This document shows, piece after piece, positions 5,086 to 40,036 of a stretch of 64,000 nt of DNA. The notes under the pieces are model-generated. The model worked only from the letters and a program-made list of their open reading frames with translations, was not told where the DNA came from and made no database searches. Source of the stretch: Blattabacterium cuenoti (lineage in GTDB: Bacteria > Bacteroidota > Bacteroidia > Flavobacteriales > Blattabacteriaceae); the NCBI RefSeq assembly GCF_014252015.1, contig NZ_CP059206.1:372001-436000 (forward strand). Reading direction: 5' to 3'. A program made the position numbers and the translations under genes. Numbering within the stretch: the first letter of the stretch is position 1; each line of letters starts with the position of its first letter.

Positions 5086-7407
5086 GTGGATAAAAAAAGT
5101 ATAAAAATAAATTTTTATTTCCGTAGACTTATTTTTTATTTTTGGTTTTTATTTATTATAGGAATAAGTAGTGTTACTATTATTTTTTATGCGGCTTCTA
5201 AAGGTTATTTAGGAACTTTACCTAATACTGATAATATAGAAAATCCTGCCATGAAAGTAGGTTCAGAGGTATATGATTATAATGGAATATTATTAGGAAA
5301 ATTTTTTTCTGAAAATAGAACTTTAATTACTTATCAAGAACTTCCAAGGGATCTTGTAAACGCACTTCTTGCAAAAGAAGATATTCGTTTCAAATTTCAT
5401 TCTGGAATTGATGCTAAATCTTTTCTTAGAGCAATTCTTTCTTTAGGAAAAAAAGGTGGAGGAAGTACTATCTCACAACAATTAGCAAAACTTCTTTTTA
5501 CAGGAACATCTGCAAAAAATAAATTACAAAGAATCCATCAAAAACTTTTAGAATGGGTAATGGCTATTGAACTTGAAAAACGTTATACAAAAGAAGAAAT
5601 TATTACTATGTATTATAATAAATTTGATTTTTTGTATAATGCAAAAGGGATAGAAACAGCTGCTCATACTTATTTTAATAAAAAGGTTTCTGAGTTAAAT
5701 TTAGGTGAATCTGCAATATTGGTTGGAATGCTAGAAAATCCTTCTTTATATAATCCCAAAAATTATCCTGAAAGAGCAAAAAAACAAAGAAATTTAGTTT
5801 TACATCAAATGATGAAATATAATTTATTAAACATATGTAGATATAAAAAAGAAGTAGAAAAACCTATAAAAATAAATTTTAAAATACAAAAGAAAGATTT
5901 TGAATTGCTTACTTATTATGGTGAGTTTTTAAAAAAAGAAATTCAAGAAGCTTTAGATGAACATGAAGATAAAACTGGACAAAAACTTAATCTTTATTCT
6001 AGCGGATTAAAAATATATACATCTATTGATGCTAAAATGCAGGATTATGCAGAAAAAGCTGTAAAAAAACATCTCAGTCAATTACAAATTTTGTTTAATC
6101 ATTTTCAAAAAAAAAATAAAAATGCCCCATTTTTAAATATTTCTCCAGAAAAAACAAAACGAATTCTTATATCTGCAATGCATAGAACTACTCTTTACCA
6201 AGATTTAAAACAAAAGGGGTTAACAGAAAAAAAAATTACAGAAGAATTTAAAAAACCACAATTAATCAGATTATTCACTTGGAATGGTGCCAAAAAAGTA
6301 TTAATGTCTCCATGGGATTTTATTCGTTATCAAAAAAGTATTATTCAAGGTGGTATGTTGTCTGTAGAATCTTCTACTGGATTTATTAAAGCATGGGTAG
6401 GAGGGATAGATTTTAATTATTTTCAATATGATCATGTAGCAAAAACACAACGTCAAGTTGGATCTGTTTTTAAACCTATTTTATATGCTGCTGCTATTAA
6501 TGAATTACATTATAATCCTTGTACAAAAATTTCAAATGAAAAATTTCATTTAGGAAAATGGAGTCCTAGAAATTCAAATGGAAAATACGGAGGTTTTCTT
6601 ACTTTAAAAGATGGATTAGCTTTTTCAGTTAATACTATTTCTGCTCGTTTAATATCGCAAATTACTCCAGGTCCAGTTATTAATTTAGCAAAAAAAATGG
6701 GAATAGAATCTATAATTCCTGAACATCCATCTATAGCGCTTGGTTCTGCTGATCTCACTTTATATGAAATGACAGGTGCATTCAATACATTTACTAATTA
6801 TGGAATTTATGTTAGACCCTCTATTTTAGTAAAAATAGAGGATGAGAATGGAAATTTAATTAAAGAACATATAGATTTTAGTAGGAGACAAGTTTTTAGT
6901 GAAGAAATAGGGTATATTATGTTAAAATTAATGCAAGGAGTAATTAAATATGGAACGGCGAAAAGATTACAAAATTACAATTTTATAGGAGATATCGCTG
7001 GAAAAACAGGAACAACTAATGAAAACTCAGATGGATGGTTTATAGGTATGATTCCTAATTTGACTACTGGAATATGGGTAGGTTGGGAAGATAGATTTTC
7101 TCATTTTGAGAATATAAAACTAGGACAAGGTGCAAATATGGCTTTACCTATATGGGCTTATTATATGAAAAGTTTATACAAAAATATAAATTTAATTTAT
7201 CATGATAAATTATTTTTTCACAAACCTAAAAATTATCAATCTCATTGGGATCATTGCAATGAAAACCGGATTAAAGAAGAAAACATAATAAACGAAGAAA
7301 ACATAATAAATGAAGAAAACATGATAAATGAAGAAAAAAAAGAAAAAGAAATTATAGATTTTGATGGATACTTAAACTCAGAAAATAGTAATGATTATGA
7401 TAAATGA
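5086..7407 (+). CDS. mrcA: Class A penicillin-binding protein 1A (transglycosylase/transpeptidase)
   Basis: The 773-residue protein starts with GTG. It has one N-terminal membrane anchor (about 10-35), a GT51 glycosyltransferase domain (AKEDIRFKFHSG near residue 96, GGGSTISQQLAKLLF near 124) and a transpeptidase domain with the active-site motifs SVFK (about 459), SVN (about 514) and KTG (about 639). It polymerises and cross-links peptidoglycan in the periplasm. The C-terminal tail holds three exact or near-exact 18-bp repeats coding EENIIN/EENMIN, a charged extension outside the catalytic domains. The gene ends 1 nt before the preferred serA start, so the two are likely co-transcribed. Confidence 0.95.
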   Translation: MDKKSIKINFYFRRLIFYFWFLFIIGISSVTIIFYAASKGYLGTLPNTDNIENPAMKVGSEVYDYNGILLGKFFSENRTLITYQELPRDLVNALLAKEDIRFKFHSGIDAKSFLRAILSLGKKGGGSTISQQLAKLLFTGTSAKNKLQRIHQKLLEWVMAIELEKRYTKEEIITMYYNKFDFLYNAKGIETAAHTYFNKKVSELNLGESAILVGMLENPSLYNPKNYPERAKKQRNLVLHQMMKYNLLNICRYKKEVEKPIKINFKIQKKDFELLTYYGEFLKKEIQEALDEHEDKTGQKLNLYSSGLKIYTSIDAKMQDYAEKAVKKHLSQLQILFNHFQKKNKNAPFLNISPEKTKRILISAMHRTTLYQDLKQKGLTEKKITEEFKKPQLIRLFTWNGAKKVLMSPWDFIRYQKSIIQGGMLSVESSTGFIKAWVGGIDFNYFQYDHVAKTQRQVGSVFKPILYAAAINELHYNPCTKISNEKFHLGKWSPRNSNGKYGGFLTLKDGLAFSVNTISARLISQITPGPVINLAKKMGIESIIPEHPSIALGSADLTLYEMTGAFNTFTNYGIYVRPSILVKIEDENGNLIKEHIDFSRRQVFSEEIGYIMLKLMQGVIKYGTAKRLQNYNFIGDIAGKTGTTNENSDGWFIGMIPNLTTGIWVGWEDRFSHFENIKLGQGANMALPIWAYYMKSLYKNINLIYHDKLFFHKPKNYQSHWDHCNENRIKEENIINEENIINEENMINEEKKEKEIIDFDGYLNSENSNDYDK
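7276..7329 (+). repeat. Three tandem 18-bp repeats in the PBP1A tail
   Basis: Units GAAGAAAACATAATAAAC (7276-7293), the same with a final T (7294-7311) and a copy with one A-to-G change (7312-7329) encode EENIIN, EENIIN and EENMIN in frame. A degenerate Glu/Lys-rich stretch follows. This is a short in-frame minisatellite that can change copy number without breaking the gene. Confidence 0.9.
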
Positions 7408-8365: not shown

Positions 8366-8381
8366 TAAAGATTAACTAATT
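8360..8381. terminator. Weak hairpin between convergent serA and cysJ
   Basis: AATTAGT (8360-8366) and ACTAATT (8375-8381) are inverted repeats around an 8-nt loop, overlapping the serA stop codon. The stem is short and A/T-only apart from one G-C pair, so function as a two-way terminator is only possible. Confidence 0.25.
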
Positions 8382-8400
8382 GGATATTTTATCATATGAA

Positions 8401-9519
8401 TCAATATACATCTTTCAAGTATCTTCCTTCTTTTTTCATTTTTTTTATGAAAAATTTTGAATCACATTTTCCTACTTTTTCTATAACACGACAAATCATT
8501 TTTTCTACATCTAAACTCATAGGAATTCTATTTCCACAAATATAAACATAGGCTCCATTTTTTATCCAATCAAAAAATTCTATTCTATTTTCCCATATTT
8601 TATTTTGTACATAAATTTTTTTTTCTTGATCTCTCGAAAAAGATAAACTGACATAATGAAGAATTCCTTTTTTTTTCCAATTTTTGATTTCTGTTTGATA
8701 TAAAAAATCTGTATTGGAGTATTGATCTCCAAAAAATAACCAATTTTTACCCGTAGCTTTTCTTGCTTCTCTTTCATATAAAAAAGAACGAAAAGGAGCT
8801 ATTCCAGTTCCAGGACCAATAAGAATTATATCTTTATTTAATTTGGGTAATTTAAAAAACGGATTTTTATAAATAAAAAAAGATAATTCATCTCCCATTT
8901 TAAGTTTAGATAAAAAATCAGAACAATGACCGTATATGGTTTCTTTATTTAATTTAAAACGATGACGAGATACTGTAATATGGATTATATTACCATGAGC
9001 TATAGGAGATGAAGATATAGAATATAGTCTAGGTTTTATGGGATCCATTATTTTTATTAGATCTTTTAGAGAATATTTATTTTTTATAGGAAATTTTTTT
9101 AAAAGATCGATAAGTTTCCATTTATGATTTAAATCAATATTTTTTTTTTCTGATAAAAAAGAGTATTTATTCAAAAAATTTTCGGATAAATAAAAAATAT
9201 TTAGATTTTTCTTAAAAAGATTAAATATCTTATTTTTTTCTTCATATTTATATTTTTTCAATTCTTCTTTCTTATTTTCTTTTATATACTCTATAAGATG
9301 ATCTACTTCATTACAAGAATTTTCAGGAAAAATACCTATAGAGTCTCCAGGAAGATACTCTATTTTATTTGGAACAAAAATTTCTATATGATGAATTTCT
9401 TTGTTAGACCCTTTTTCTTGATCATTTAAAATTATATTATTTAAAATTTTTCCATATATTCTTTGGTTTTTAATTTGATTTTTTTTTTTTTTAAAAAATT
9501 CATAATTTCCGAAAACCAT
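8401..9519 (-). CDS. cysJ: Sulfite reductase flavoprotein, C-terminal FAD/NADPH part (frame 2 of split cysJ)
   Basis: This open frame carries the ferredoxin-reductase half of CysJ: a connecting/FAD domain with RLYSISSSP and GHCSDFL, an NADPH domain with IGPGTGIAPFRSFL, the GKNWLFFGDQY segment, YICGN, and the typical aromatic end YLKDVY. It lacks the FMN (flavodoxin) domain, which lies upstream in another frame (9441-10064). The two frames meet at a run of 14 A (9479-9492 on the plus strand as T). One extra A, or two fewer, would fuse them into a protein of about 550 residues, the expected CysJ size. The nominal ATG at 9519 is probably internal, not a real start. Confidence 0.85.
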   Translation of the reverse strand: MVFGNYEFFKKKKNQIKNQRIYGKILNNIILNDQEKGSNKEIHHIEIFVPNKIEYLPGDSIGIFPENSCNEVDHLIEYIKENKKEELKKYKYEEKNKIFNLFKKNLNIFYLSENFLNKYSFLSEKKNIDLNHKWKLIDLLKKFPIKNKYSLKDLIKIMDPIKPRLYSISSSPIAHGNIIHITVSRHRFKLNKETIYGHCSDFLSKLKMGDELSFFIYKNPFFKLPKLNKDIILIGPGTGIAPFRSFLYEREARKATGKNWLFFGDQYSNTDFLYQTEIKNWKKKGILHYVSLSFSRDQEKKIYVQNKIWENRIEFFDWIKNGAYVYICGNRIPMSLDVEKMICRVIEKVGKCDSKFFIKKMKKEGRYLKDVY

Positions 9520-10064
9520 TTTTTTGCTTGGGTTTCATAATCAACGTCACATTTATGTAATGGAACTATTCTAGTCGCTCCTATATCATGTAAACGTTTA
9601 TCCACATCTTTACCTGCTTTACAAAAATAAGTATATGATCTATCTCCCAATGCTAAAACGCTGTATTTCATATTTTTTAGAAAAAGGTTTTTATTATAAT
9701 GAATAAAATCAAAAAAAGACTTTGCAGAAGATGGAGGTTCACCTTCTCCATGAGTACTCATTATAATGAAAAAATAATCTTCTTTTTCTAAATTTTGCAT
9801 AGAATATTGATCTAAACTAATTAATTTAATTTTAAATTTTTCTTTTTCAGCTTTTTGATAAATATTAAAAGCTAAATTTTTAGCATTTCCTGTTTCTGTA
9901 CCATAAACTAACGTAATTTTTTTTTCTTCCTTTTTTATAAATTCTTTTAAATTTTTTTTAGAAAGCAATAATCCAGACATATAACCACACATCCATATAA
10001 TTTCTTCTTGAGTAGATTCTTGTATTAACTTAAAAAATGTCTTGTTATTTGATTCAGATAACAT
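9441..10064 (-). CDS. cysJ: Sulfite reductase flavoprotein, N-terminal flavodoxin part (frame 1 of split cysJ)
   Basis: Starting at ATG 10064, this frame encodes a short leader and a flavodoxin domain: YGTETGNAKNLA (FMN phosphate loop, about residues 54-65), MSTHGEGEPPSSA and LALGDRSYTYFCKAG. It then runs through KKKK at the 14-A tract and stops about 14 codons later in a tail that does not belong to the family. CysJ passes electrons from NADPH through FAD and FMN to the CysI hemoprotein, which reduces sulfite to sulfide. Domain sequences on both sides of the tract look well conserved, so rescue by transcript slippage is plausible. A sequencing error or a recent loss are the alternatives. Confidence 0.85.
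   Translation of the reverse strand: MLSESNNKTFFKLIQESTQEEIIWMCGYMSGLLLSKKNLKEFIKKEEKKITLVYGTETGNAKNLAFNIYQKAEKEKFKIKLISLDQYSMQNLEKEDYFFIIMSTHGEGEPPSSAKSFFDFIHYNKNLFLKNMKYSVLALGDRSYTYFCKAGKDVDKRLHDIGATRIVPLHKCDVDYETQAKKWFSEIMNFLKKKKIKLKTKEYMEKF
9479..9492 (-). other. Poly(A)14 tract at the cysJ frameshift
   Basis: Fourteen consecutive T on the plus strand (A on the coding strand). Read in the upstream frame the tract gives TTA followed by four AAA codons and then ATC. Read in the downstream frame it gives four AAA codons and then AAT. The phase differs by one nucleotide, so the break in cysJ falls at this tract. Confidence 0.9.
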
Positions 10065-10127: not shown

Positions 10128-11039
10128 TCACATAAAAAGATTATCAACAGATAAATATCTTTCTCCAGTATCATAATTAAACGTTAATATTATAGATTTT
10201 TTTGAAAATTTAGATAATTGTTTTTCTATAGCAGATAATGAAGCCCCAGTAGATATTCCAACAAGAATTCCTTCTTTTTTTGCCGTTTTTTTAACATAAG
10301 AAAAAGCTTCTTCTTTAGATACCAAAAAAGAGCCATCTAATATTTTTACATTTAAAATAGATGGGATAAAACCTGCACCTAATCCTTGTAAAGCATGAGA
10401 ATTTGGTGTTCCTCCAAATATAACTGGAGATTCTATAGGTTCCACAGAAAATATTTTTATATTTGGAAACTTATCTTTTAATACTTCTCCTATTCCAGTA
10501 ATATGACCCCCCGTTCCTACTCCTGTAATGAAATAATCTATCCCCTTAGGAAAAGCATCTATAATTTCTTTTGCAGTTGTATTTTTATGTATATTGGGAT
10601 TTGAAATATTATCAAATTGTTTAGGCATCCAGGAATTTGGAATAGTATCTATTAATTCTTCTGCTTTTTTAATTGCTCCTTTCATTCCATCTTCTCTTGG
10701 AGTAAGAACAAATTTTGCTCCAAAAATAGAAAATAATTTTCTTCTTTCAATACTCATAGACTCTGGCATAACTAAAATAAGACGATAACCTTTTACAGAG
10801 CAAACTATTGCCAATCCTATTCCTGTATTTCCCGAAGTAGGTTCTATGATAATATCACCTTTGTGAATAATTTCTTTTTTTTCTGCATCTTCTATCATAG
10901 ATAAAGCTATTCTATCTTTTATGCTTCCTCCAGGGTTATTTCTTTCCAGTTTTATCCATACTTGATGATTAGGAAATAATCTTTTAAGATGAACATGAGG
11001 TGTATTTCCTATAGTTTTTAAAATACTATCAACTTTCAT
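10128..11039 (-). CDS. cysK: Cysteine synthase (O-acetylserine sulfhydrylase)
   Basis: The 303-residue PLP enzyme has the lysine that binds PLP in PGGSIKDR (Lys41), the phosphate/substrate loop TSGNTGIG (about 67-74), GTGGHITG (about 174-181) and a late serine-rich segment [10 protein letters not shown]. It converts O-acetylserine and sulfide to cysteine. It lies 10 nt downstream of cysE, which makes the O-acetylserine, and upstream of cysJ, part of the sulfide source, so the three form a cysteine operon. Length and motifs are normal for CysK; CysM-like use of other sulfur donors cannot be excluded. Confidence 0.95.
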
Positions 11040-11049
11040 TTTTATTTTT

Positions 11050-11874
11050 TTATATCATAAAATTAATGGGATCAGGAAAAGGACTATTATTTCTCATTTT
11101 TATTTCACTTTTTTGATAGACTATAGAAAAAGGAGGTACACTTTTTGTAACCCAAACATTACCTCCTAGCACACTATCATGACCTATTATAGTTTCTCCT
11201 CCTAGAACAGTAGCTCCAGCATAAATTGTAACTTGATTTTCTATTGTAGGATGACGTTTTATATTTGCTAATTTTTTATCTACATAAATAGCCCCTAAAG
11301 TAACTCCTTGATATATTTTAACTTTATCTCCTATTTTGGTACTAGATCCTATAACTATTCCTGTTCCATGATCGATAGCAAAAGCTTTTCCTATTTCTGC
11401 AGATGCATGAATATCCACTCCAGTTTTACTATGTGCATATTCTGTAATCAATCTTGGAATAATCGGAATTTTTTGAATCCATAATTGATGTGCTATTCTA
11501 TATAATGCAGTGGCAAAGAACCCAGGATAAGAAAGGAAAATTTCTTCTATAACTGTTGCTGCGGGATCCGATTTAAGTATTGCATTAGCATCTATTATCA
11601 AAGTTTTATAAATATTAGGTACTTCTTTGAAAAAAATTCGAGTAAAATTATCAGAATCTTTTTCATTTATATTCAATTCAATGAAAATTTCGTATAAAAG
11701 TTTTTGTAAATTTTCATAATTTTTTTTAAAAAGAATTGCATCATCTAAAATATTTTGATCGGGAGTAAATAAAGTATGAAATAATTTTTTAACAAAATCT
11801 TCAGATTTTTTTTTATCAGGAAAAATATTTTTATTTCTATTATTTTCAAATATGGTTATTAAAAAATCTAACAT
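11050..11874 (-). CDS. cysE: Serine O-acetyltransferase
   Basis: The product acetylates serine with acetyl-CoA, the first step to cysteine. I use ATG 11874 ([11 protein letters not shown]), since the longer frame starts with TTG at 11904 and would code a poly-lysine leader from a 13-A run. The N-terminal half is helical (SATase_N-like); from about residue 170 a left-handed beta-helix of hexapeptide repeats follows, with [14 protein letters not shown] and [10 protein letters not shown] around the catalytic His. The protein ends [15 protein letters not shown], a tail ending in Ile as in enzymes that bind CysK. It is the first gene of cysE-cysK-cysJ. Confidence 0.93.
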
Positions 11875-12323
11875 GTATTTTTTTTTTTTTGATTTTATTA
11901 ACAAGATATTAGAGTAGTTTTATTTCATCTTATAAACTTTAAATATCATTTTATAAATATTTATATAGAATACAGAACCTAATGATTCAAATATGGAAAA
12001 TATCCCGCATCTAAATAAAATATTTTTATGATGAAATTAAATATACGATTTAAAAATAGTAGAATACACTACTTTTTTTTCTAGAAAGAAAATAATTCTT
12101 AATTTTTCTACCACAGATACAGAAGTAAATTTAATTTTTTTTTAAAATCAGACATACATTTTTTTTCGTTCCCATGTTAAGAAGAAAAAAAATACTTCGA
12201 ATTATTCAAACTCAAAGGAAGATTAATACCTAATACAACTAATATTAATATAATAATTACGCAAATATAAGAATTTCTTTTTTCTAAAAAAACATGTTAT
12301 ATTATAATAAATTTTTCGATTTT
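11875..12323. other. Longest gene-free stretch, possibly holding an eroded gene
   Basis: This 449-bp gap lies between the divergent cysE and icd genes and must hold both promoters, though I cannot point to convincing ones. It is unusually long for this window. On the minus strand, 12177-12293 is open for 38 codons with a hydrophobic run (CVIIILILVVLGI) but no in-frame start. An ATG at 12294-12296 would join that frame if the following 7-T run had one more T. Further homopolymers (9 T at about 12135, 8 A at about 12185) break other short frames. I see no RNA gene. Confidence 0.5.
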
Positions 12324-28146: not shown

Positions 28147-28416
28147 TTACCAACTAGCCTTTTTTACTCCAGGAATAAGACCTTGAGAAACTAAACTTCT
28201 AAAAACAATACGAGATACTCCAAATTGCCGCATATATCCCCTGCACCTACCAGTGATAGAACATCTATTTCTTAAACGAACGGGAGATGCATCTCTAGGC
28301 AATTTTTGCAATAATTCATAATTTCCAGATTTTTTCAAAATTTTTCTTTTATTTGCATATTTTAAAACCATTCTTTCTCTTTTTCTTTGCCTTGCTTTAA
28401 CAGATTCTTTAGCCAT
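28147..28416 (-). CDS. rpsN: 30S ribosomal protein S14
   Basis: Starting at ATG 28416 ([16 protein letters not shown]), 89 residues; the longer frame uses a far-upstream start inside rplE. It is the zinc-free long S14: [33 protein letters not shown] and a terminal GVKKASW. It overlaps rplE by 8 nt. Confidence 0.95.
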
Positions 28417-28969
28417 TTTTATTTTTTTTAAAAGGTAATCCAAATAAAGATAAAAGAATTTTGGCCTCCTCATTTTTTTTTGTAGAAGTAACAAATGTAA
28501 TATTCATACCCATATTTTTCTTAATTTTATCAATATTTATTTCAGGATAAATCACTTGCTCTATAATACCCATATTATAATTTCCATGACCATCAAAACT
28601 ACTTTCTTTTACTCCATTAAAATCTCTTACTCTTGGTAAAGAGATCACAATAAGTCTTTCCAAAAATTCGTACATTCTTATTCTCCTTAAAGTAACTTTA
28701 ACTCCTATAGGCATTCCTTTTCTCAGTTTAAATCCTGATTCATCATGTTTAGAATAACATAAAATAGCTTTTTGTCCTGTAATATCTGTTATTTCATTGA
28801 TAGAATAATCTATTATTTTTTTATCTAAAATAGAAGAGCCTATTCCCTGATGAATTACTATTTTTTTTAGTTTTGGAACTTTCATAATAGAACTATATCC
28901 GAATTTTTCCATTAAATTAGGAACTATTTTTTCTTTATAAAGTTTTTGTAATCTAGATTGATAAATCAT
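28409..28969 (-). CDS. rplE: 50S ribosomal protein L5
   Basis: 186 residues with [36 protein letters not shown] and [12 protein letters not shown]5 binds 5S rRNA and the P-site tRNA through the B1b bridge. The ATG lies 8 nt after the stop of a shortened rplX. Confidence 0.97.
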
Positions 28970-38491: not shown

Positions 38492-40036
38492 TTATTTTTT
38501 GTTTATTATAATAGAAGTTCCATTCATAATTTTAGGAATAGGTAATCCCATTAATTGTAAAATAGTGGGAGCTACATCTGACAAAACTCCCTTATTTTTC
38601 AAAAAAATATCTTGTTTTTTTATATCTCTATTTAAAATAATAAAAGGAACTAAAGATGTAGTATGAGCAGTATGAGGAGTTCCGTCTATATTGATCATAC
38701 AATCGGCATTTCCATGATCCCCTACAATAATAACTGTATATGAATTTTTTATAGCTTCTTCAGAACAATATTTCGCACATTTATCAACAAATTCACATGC
38801 TTTTATTGTTTCTTTCATTTTACCAGTATGTCCAACCATGTCTGGATTTGCAAAATTTAGACAAATAAAATCTGATTGTTTTCTTTTTAGTTCAGGAATA
38901 ATTTTTTTTACAATATTTTCTGCGCTCATTTCAGGTTTTAAATCATAAGTAGGAACTTTAGGAGATTTACATAAAATTCTTATTTCTCGATTAAAAGGTG
39001 TCTCTCTTCCCCCCGAGAAAAAAAAAGTTACATGTGGATATTTTTCTGTTTCAGCTATACGTATTTGTTGTTTTCCTTCTTTTTCTAAAATTTCACCTAA
39101 AGTATCTGATAAATATTCTTTTTTAAAAAGAACATGAACTCCCTTATATTTAGGATTAAAACAAGTCATAGTTATATAATAAGATAAGTCTAATTTTTTC
39201 ATTTCTGAAAAAGGGGTATTGTATCCTATTAAAAGCTCTGTAATCTGCCTCGAACGATCAGGACGAAAGTTAAAACAAAAAACAACATCTCCATTTTTAA
39301 TTTTTGAAATAGGAACTTCATTTTCATCAACAATTACTAAAGGAGATAAAAATTCATCTGTTACTCCTTTATTATAAAATTCTTCTATAGACGAAATTAT
39401 GTTTTTAGTATAAATTCCTTTTGAATTAACCATTACATCATATGCTTTTTTAGTTCTTTCCCATTTTTGATCACGATCCATAGAATAATATCTTCCAATA
39501 ACAGAGCATAATGTTCCAACATATTGTTTAGTTACATTTAAAAGTTCTTTTATATAAAAAATACTTCTTTTTGGAGAAGAATCTCTTCCATCTGTAAAAA
39601 CATGTATAAAAACATCTTTTATTTTTTTTTTATAAGCTATTTTAAGCAAATAAAAAAGATGATTCATATGTGAATGAACTCCACCATCAGATAATAATCC
39701 AATAAAATGAATTCTTTTTTTAGAAATAAAAACTTCATTAAAAAGAACATCTACTTTTTCTCTAAATGAATTATTTTTTATGGAAATATTAATTTTCTCT
39801 AAACTTTGAGGTACTTTACGTCCAGATCCTAAATTAATATGACCTACTTCCGAGTTTCCCATTTGTCCTTTAGGTAATCCAACATGATATCCTGATGCTT
39901 CTAATTTACTAGAAGGATAATTTTTATAGCAAAAATTAATAAATGGAGTATTAGCTTGTTCTATTGCAGAAAAATAATAATTTTGTGAAGTAGTAAGGCC
40001 CCAACCGTCCAAAATTATTAACATTAATCTTTTCAT
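38492..40036 (-). CDS. gpmI: 2,3-Bisphosphoglycerate-independent phosphoglycerate mutase
   Basis: 514 residues. The N-terminal LIILDGWG metal site, the phosphoserine nucleophile in MGNSEVGHINLGSGR (Ser62), FTDGRDSSPKRS, GRYYSMDRD, FRPDRSRQI, and the C-terminal NFANPDMVGHTG and VGDHGNADCM metal ligands match the Mn-dependent iPGM. It interconverts 3- and 2-phosphoglycerate, feeding eno downstream in the window. Length is full. Confidence 0.97.
   Translation of the reverse strand: MKRLMLIILDGWGLTTSQNYYFSAIEQANTPFINFCYKNYPSSKLEASGYHVGLPKGQMGNSEVGHINLGSGRKVPQSLEKINISIKNNSFREKVDVLFNEVFISKKRIHFIGLLSDGGVHSHMNHLFYLLKIAYKKKIKDVFIHVFTDGRDSSPKRSIFYIKELLNVTKQYVGTLCSVIGRYYSMDRDQKWERTKKAYDVMVNSKGIYTKNIISSIEEFYNKGVTDEFLSPLVIVDENEVPISKIKNGDVVFCFNFRPDRSRQITELLIGYNTPFSEMKKLDLSYYITMTCFNPKYKGVHVLFKKEYLSDTLGEILEKEGKQQIRIAETEKYPHVTFFFSGGRETPFNREIRILCKSPKVPTYDLKPEMSAENIVKKIIPELKRKQSDFICLNFANPDMVGHTGKMKETIKACEFVDKCAKYCSEEAIKNSYTVIIVGDHGNADCMINIDGTPHTAHTTSLVPFIILNRDIKKQDIFLKNKGVLSDVAPTILQLMGLPIPKIMNGTSIIINKK

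Follow-up and report, generated by a model that had tools for sequence, protein, structure and literature searches.

In the Blattabacterium genome examined here (G000), cysJ is split by a frame break at a run of 14 A, and the sulfite reductase that its product would classically serve is gone. On balance, we favor the view that cysJ is a live gene that carries a frame break, has been orphaned from sulfite reductase and serves some other electron-transfer job, its full-length product probably arising by slippage or frameshifting. We posit that this lineage long since gave up the CysI hemoprotein, its siroheme and the earlier sulfate steps, and that CysJ, the one member of its family that the cell has for carrying electrons from NADPH to flavin (FAD, then FMN), would have been retained and would deliver them to a different acceptor. 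One A would then have been lost from the DNA within a hypervariable linker tract. Full-length CysJ would probably still be made, at reduced yield, either through insertion of an extra A into some transcripts by RNA polymerase or through ribosomes slipping back by one base; the FAD/NADPH (FNR) half may also be translated alone, from its ATG at 9519.

The frame break in cysJ

The window, a 64,000-nucleotide stretch, spans positions 372001 to 436000 of the single contig of G000 (G000:C1), a genome of 629,662 bases that is 99.8% complete. The features that bear on the argument, in window coordinates, are as follows.

10064 to 9441, minus strand: flavodoxin (FMN) half of cysJ, 207 aa; ATG at 10064, stop at 9443-9441; PF00258 (E 9e-34); TIGR01931 profile positions 7-212
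9519 to 8401, minus strand: FAD/NADPH (FNR) half of cysJ, 372 aa; own ATG at 9519, stop at 8403-8401; PF00667 and PF00175; TIGR01931 profile positions 226-597
9441 to 9519, minus strand: 79-nt overlap of the two cysJ frames, inside which the frame change must fall
9479 to 9492, minus strand: A14 tract, site of the -1 frame change (T14 on the plus strand, A on either flank)
10128 to 11039, minus strand: cysK, directly upstream of cysJ on the same strand; control gene for the codon models
11050 to 11904, minus strand: cysE (serine acetyltransferase), upstream of cysK
8366 to 8400, no strand: 35-bp gap between the stops of the convergent serA-like gene and cysJ; CysI-bearing relatives (e.g., G018) have cysI there

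The original prediction, that two cysJ frames meet at 14 A and fall one A short of a protein of about 550 residues, is borne out by the sequence and its open reading frames: the tract lies at 9479-9492, the joined frame has 554 codons, and the interval it named, 9441-9519, is exactly the overlap of the flavodoxin and FNR reading frames. Since the FNR half reads in the -1 frame with respect to the flavodoxin half, the two would be joined by one additional A or two fewer A in the mRNA, or by a -1 ribosomal shift, and the tract holds three in-phase A_AAA_AAA heptamers of the slippery kind known from -1 frameshifting. The FNR frame also has its own ATG, 24 residues ahead of the domain, with an A-rich leader (CAAGCAAAAAA upstream of 9519).

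Both halves are open and map to consecutive parts of the CysJ profile TIGR01931 (E 4e-54 and 3e-97), as befits a CysJ-family protein, although the curated cut-off of 668 bits is reached neither by either half alone nor by the full-length relative P0001 (525 bits). The motifs were predicted to be intact on both sides, and the alignment agrees, the RLYS-type motif, GTGIAPF and the C-terminal KDVY of the FNR half showing little or no variation across 16 aligned sequences. Beyond the tract, the G000 gene shows no further stops or indels, and its omega resembles that of intact sisters, which sets it apart from a pseudogene; a single indel in a long homopolymer within an otherwise intact gene is what a slippage-rescued frameshift looks like. 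A contig search with the CysJ alignment returned one Blattabacterium (strain ALLACbim), the rest being distant CysJ proteins, and a contig search with the FNR half alone as query returned no relatives.

The A14 run is in itself unremarkable at 25% GC: A12 occurs five times in the window against a shuffled mean of 4.6, and runs of at least 12 A are neither rarer nor commoner than shuffling predicts. Within the window no coding sequence has a longer A run; the second-longest run, an A13 at 11878-11890, lies just ahead of the cysE ATG, and among 73 conserved window genes compared with relatives cysJ is the only one clearly split by a frame change. Candidate breaks in the genes at 28409-28969 and 38492-40036 were discarded, their apparent stops being differences ahead of the start codon. 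An 18-bp tandem repeat of 3.7 copies makes up the C-terminal tail of the PBP1A-like gene (window 7272-7337); the corresponding place in G044 (L108:1967-2638) holds a perfect 30-bp repeat of 22 copies. In 14 sister genomes that also lack CysI, the longest A run of the cysJ linker ranges from 9 to 15 (mostly 11-15), with the frame intact. The comparison with related strains that the original prediction proposed thus shows a break private to G000 among 49 genomes, beside sisters that carry A13 to A15 in frame; the cysJ break is not an inherited one, as a long-rescued frameshift might be.

Loss of sulfite reduction

Among 49 Blattabacterium genomes, G000 included, we surveyed profiles for CysI (PF01077), CysH/CysD (PF01507) and siroheme synthase (TIGR01469). 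In G000 there was no PF01077 match, no PF01507 match and no TIGR01469 match; CysJ therefore cannot feed a sulfite reductase, and sulfite reduction does not continue. The expectation that it would persist at a lowered yield of CysJ falls with these three absences. Across the genus, PF01077 is found in 9 of 49 genomes, as eight intact CysI genes and one pseudogene (G011), and TIGR01469 exceeds its cut-off in exactly the eight genomes with intact CysI. Strong CysH/CysD matches come mainly from CysI-bearing genomes, elsewhere PF01507 gives weak matches that lie in other long open reading frames, and G040 retains CysH/CysD remnants with stops. In the CysI-bearing G018, cysI lies directly behind cysJ, whereas in G000 cysJ and the convergent serA-like gene are a mere 35 bp apart.

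Pathway loss in other Blattabacterium strains has been reported before (PMC6039017), and the paper on strain Pam describes the loss of cysN, cysD and cysI, with cysH and cysJ left as isolated genes (PMC3287516). G011 is a case of the pathway caught mid-decay: stops and a deletion mark its cysI (L120) as a fresh pseudogene, its siroheme synthase is gone, and both changes stand beside a split cysJ. Decay elsewhere in the pathway had been named in advance as a sign that cysJ is a true pseudogene. The decay is there, in the loss of CysI, CysH/CysD and siroheme synthase, but the pseudogene does not follow from it, because cysJ is kept and selected without the pathway in 40 of 49 genomes.

Retention of CysJ and selection on its two halves

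All 49 genomes have a cysJ homologue. CysJ is the sole Flavodoxin_1 (PF00258) protein in 41 of them, the remaining eight having none, and the sole FNR-type NAD_binding_1 (PF00175) protein in every one. The gene is full-length and in one frame in 37 genomes; in three more (G000 at A14, G011 at A10, G002 at A11) it splits at the linker while each half stays open. Seven genomes (G008, G015, G021, G043, G044, G047, G058) have an FNR-only gene, in which the flavodoxin part is deleted and a new ATG follows soon after cysK; G054 is FNR-only with an additional A10 break inside the FNR half, and in G040 the flavodoxin half is broken within its N-terminal part. The flavodoxin half has been lost in eight genomes, as against a single genome with a broken FNR half. 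On a tree built from cysK, the FNR half and serA, strongly supported branches require at least three changes to the FNR-only state, and the linker was split on three independent occasions; several lineages (at least three) manage with the FNR half alone. The clade of G000 comprises 15 genomes, all lacking CysI, 14 of which have CysJ in one frame.

Selection was estimated with a purpose-written codon-model script, pairwise and on a tree of the G000 clade plus two outgroups, all without CysI. Clade omega was 0.108 for the flavodoxin half and 0.093 for the FNR half, beside 0.085 for serA and 0.040 for cysK; a smaller run gave the same outline as the full one. On the G000 branch, omega was 0.052 for the flavodoxin and 0.113 for the FNR half, with omega=1 rejected for both (LR 49.8 and 18.9), values that are whole-branch averages and cannot date the break. 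Purifying selection thus acts on both sides of it, as is the case in slippage-rescued genes, although a very recent break would look alike. FNR-only branches gave 0.154 (G008 and G058; LR 54) and 0.125 (G043/G047; LR 84). In G002, the FNR half has no ATG, GTG or TTG before residue 57, yet its omega is 0.114 (LR 21). These values and the rejection of omega=1 indicate that both halves are maintained without CysI, and that the FNR half is maintained without the flavodoxin half as well.

Poly(A) breaks elsewhere in the genus

The survey for frame breaks covered about 64-71 kb in each of ten genomes and 198 kb in each of four. All five cysJ breaks sit on A runs and are each one A short, and every poly(A) frame break found in the genus survey is -1. 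An A10 break in birA is common to the sister genomes G018, G011 and G042 (L257, L258, L267), and the intact sister G059 has A11; birA is also broken in G006 (A10) and G057 (A12) and a second time in G042 (A12). G016 has breaks in argH (A7), trpF (A10) and a 108-aa open reading frame (A10), argH and trpF being intact on both sides; menC is broken at A10 in both G016 and G049, each one A short and with both sides intact (G016/G049 regions L121-L124, L280-L289, L233-L236). In G018, ruvX is broken near the gene end (A13), and in G054 miaB has a -1 break at A14. The G054 miaB region (L213-L216) contains a tandem duplication of ~100 bp that holds A13/A14 runs. In 198 kb of G000 surveyed outside the window, the only frame break called lies at about 246,175 (~246.2 kb, L277), where relatives have an open reading frame of ~142 aa and G000 has a +1 shift at a poly(T)10; it was set aside as a poly(A) case on account of its tract.

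That all breaks run in the one-A-short direction is by itself no proof of rescue, because contraction bias in replication or undercalled homopolymers would give the same. The inherited birA break carries more weight. Across G018, G011 and G042, birA has an omega of 0.23 (LR versus 1 of 49.8), with an LR of 4.0 for the 27 codons before the break alone, and since the break is shared by descent, rescue can be tested better on birA than on cysJ. This inherited and selected break, together with the start-less but selected FNR half of G002, favors rescue at the level of expression, and slippage rescue of the G000 cysJ is plausible from its sequence. The precedent invoked in the original prediction is sound: in Buchnera and Blochmannia, RNA work has established slippage at poly(A) tracts, with 12-50% corrected transcripts (PMC5009743, PMC3017870). 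A literature search from which subscription journals were mostly absent returned no report on the rescue of poly(A) breaks in Blattabacterium.

Weighing the alternatives

The break could be real and unbridged, with the FNR half made from ATG 9519 sufficing and the flavodoxin half free to decay as it has elsewhere. The seven intact FNR-only genes with a new ATG after cysK, the FNR omega of 0.13-0.15 where tested, and the ATG and A-rich leader ahead of the G000 FNR domain all suit this account; we nevertheless regard it as unlikely, because the G000 flavodoxin half is intact and evolves with a branch omega (0.052) below that of its clade (0.108), and because the FNR half of G002 is without a usable start. 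Equally doubtful in our view is an undercall in sequencing or assembly, the true tract being 15 A and cysJ intact. No coding A run in the window exceeds the tract in length, and each poly(A) break found is short by one A, the outcome expected of undercalls; against this, sister genomes read A13 to A15 in frame at the same tract, intact open reading frames across the surveyed 1.35 Mb contain about 308 A runs of at least 10, and the recurrence of the birA break in three sister genomes is better explained by descent.

That cysJ became purposeless with the loss of CysI and is now simply breaking up, an ordinary pseudogene, is strongly disfavored. The disappearance of CysI, CysH/CysD and siroheme synthase and the pairing of a split cysJ with a fresh cysI pseudogene in G011 would fit such decay, but universal retention, an omega of ~0.1 in clades without CysI and the lopsided loss of the flavodoxin rather than the FNR half speak against it. 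We give next to no credence to slippage that keeps sulfite reduction going at a lower yield: the slippage-prone tract and the intact halves would allow for it, but the enzymes are missing from G000. Genes located outside the assembled DNA would be the one exception; in CysI-bearing relatives these genes are chromosomal and adjoin cysJ. The original interpretation was thus half right, in that cysJ is not decaying, the tract is of a slip-prone kind and inherited, selected breaks of this type exist in birA; its error lay with sulfite reduction. Our preferred reading therefore remains a live, frame-broken cysJ that works for a partner other than CysI.

What CysJ may do

The presence of cysJ in all genomes, its standing as the sole Flavodoxin_1 and FNR-type protein, purifying selection without CysI and the selected FNR-only genes together lead us to conclude that CysJ, and its NADPH-binding half in particular, is kept for a job other than sulfite reduction, with some other electron acceptor. 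Because the FNR half alone suffices in several lineages, this acceptor need not be reached via FMN. As a guess that we offer with considerable reserve, the acceptor may be free flavin or ferric iron, a role that would extend to maintaining the radical of class I ribonucleotide reductase; the link to ribonucleotide reductase draws on knowledge of E. coli and on an elimination that left out TrxR-like and nitroreductase-type reductases. The E. coli sulfite reductase flavoprotein is said, in work attributed to Coves (1993) and Eschenbrenner (1995) and cited in PMC13188885 and PMC3509625, to be a flavin reductase that activates ribonucleotide reductase by way of radical formation.

Two acceptors were dropped. 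IspH was found in 0 of 49 genomes, which removes the IspG/IspH pair, and no 2Fe-2S ferredoxin was found, the single weak Fer2 match per genome falling in an open reading frame of about 255 aa, a size that suggests SdhB. NrdB is present in every assembly that contains the plasmid contig: it lies on a small plasmid-like second contig in G007, G010, G013, G040 and G059-G063 (all nine two-contig assemblies with a match); in G005, G049 and G050 it is chromosomal. The G000 assembly is without a plasmid, and we did not take the 37 assemblies without a match as cases of NrdB loss, the plasmid being probably missing from them, given a small contig in nine and the chromosome in three.

A wider reading, which we hold only tentatively, would join these observations: the genus may keep CysJ because its NADPH-binding half has become the one reductase of the FNR type in the cell, serial loss of the flavodoxin half would convert a diflavin into a single-flavin reductase, and one-A-short genes (cysJ, birA, miaB, argH, trpF, menC) would be tolerated, expression making up the missing base in a single direction. 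The survival of cysJ in every genome, its selection and the loss of its flavodoxin half point to a redox function beyond sulfite reduction in a minimal cell, and the natural truncation series of the gene offers a means to find that role. The poly(A) breaks, with birA inherited and selected, would extend broken-frame rescue from gammaproteobacterial symbionts to Bacteroidota; if rescue is true, genes now listed as Blattabacterium pseudogenes, essential ones among them, may be expressed.

Comparison with known systems

As in Blattabacterium strain Pam, cysJ has been kept in G000 after the loss of cysI, cysN and cysD (PMC3287516). The one metabolic model of these symbionts that we consulted treats the leftover cysJ as an isolated relic; the strain Pam paper sets cysH and cysJ down as isolated and removes the reaction, and a term search of it turned up no mention of genus-wide retention, selection or flavodoxin shedding (PMC3287516). 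With the flavoprotein CysJ of E. coli NADPH-sulfite reductase (TIGR01931; 1ddg, 6efv) the G000 protein shares domain order, FAD/NADPH motifs, the C-terminal KDVY and consecutive profile matches; unlike the E. coli protein, it exists without CysI or siroheme and has a short linker, and its flavodoxin half is dispensable in several lineages. The same E. coli flavoprotein, reportedly a flavin reductase for ribonucleotide reductase (Coves 1993), would provide a precedent for a side activity that needs no CysI, here a candidate only. The closest parallels to the break itself are the slippage cases of Buchnera and Blochmannia (Tamas 2008; Wernegreen 2010; B. vafer, PMC3017870). Although Blattabacterium belongs to the Bacteroidota, every poly(A) break found in it is one A short and the classical partner of cysJ is gone, it shares with them the setting of an AT-rich insect endosymbiont in which a single indel in a long poly(A) interrupts a gene that is otherwise intact and under selection.
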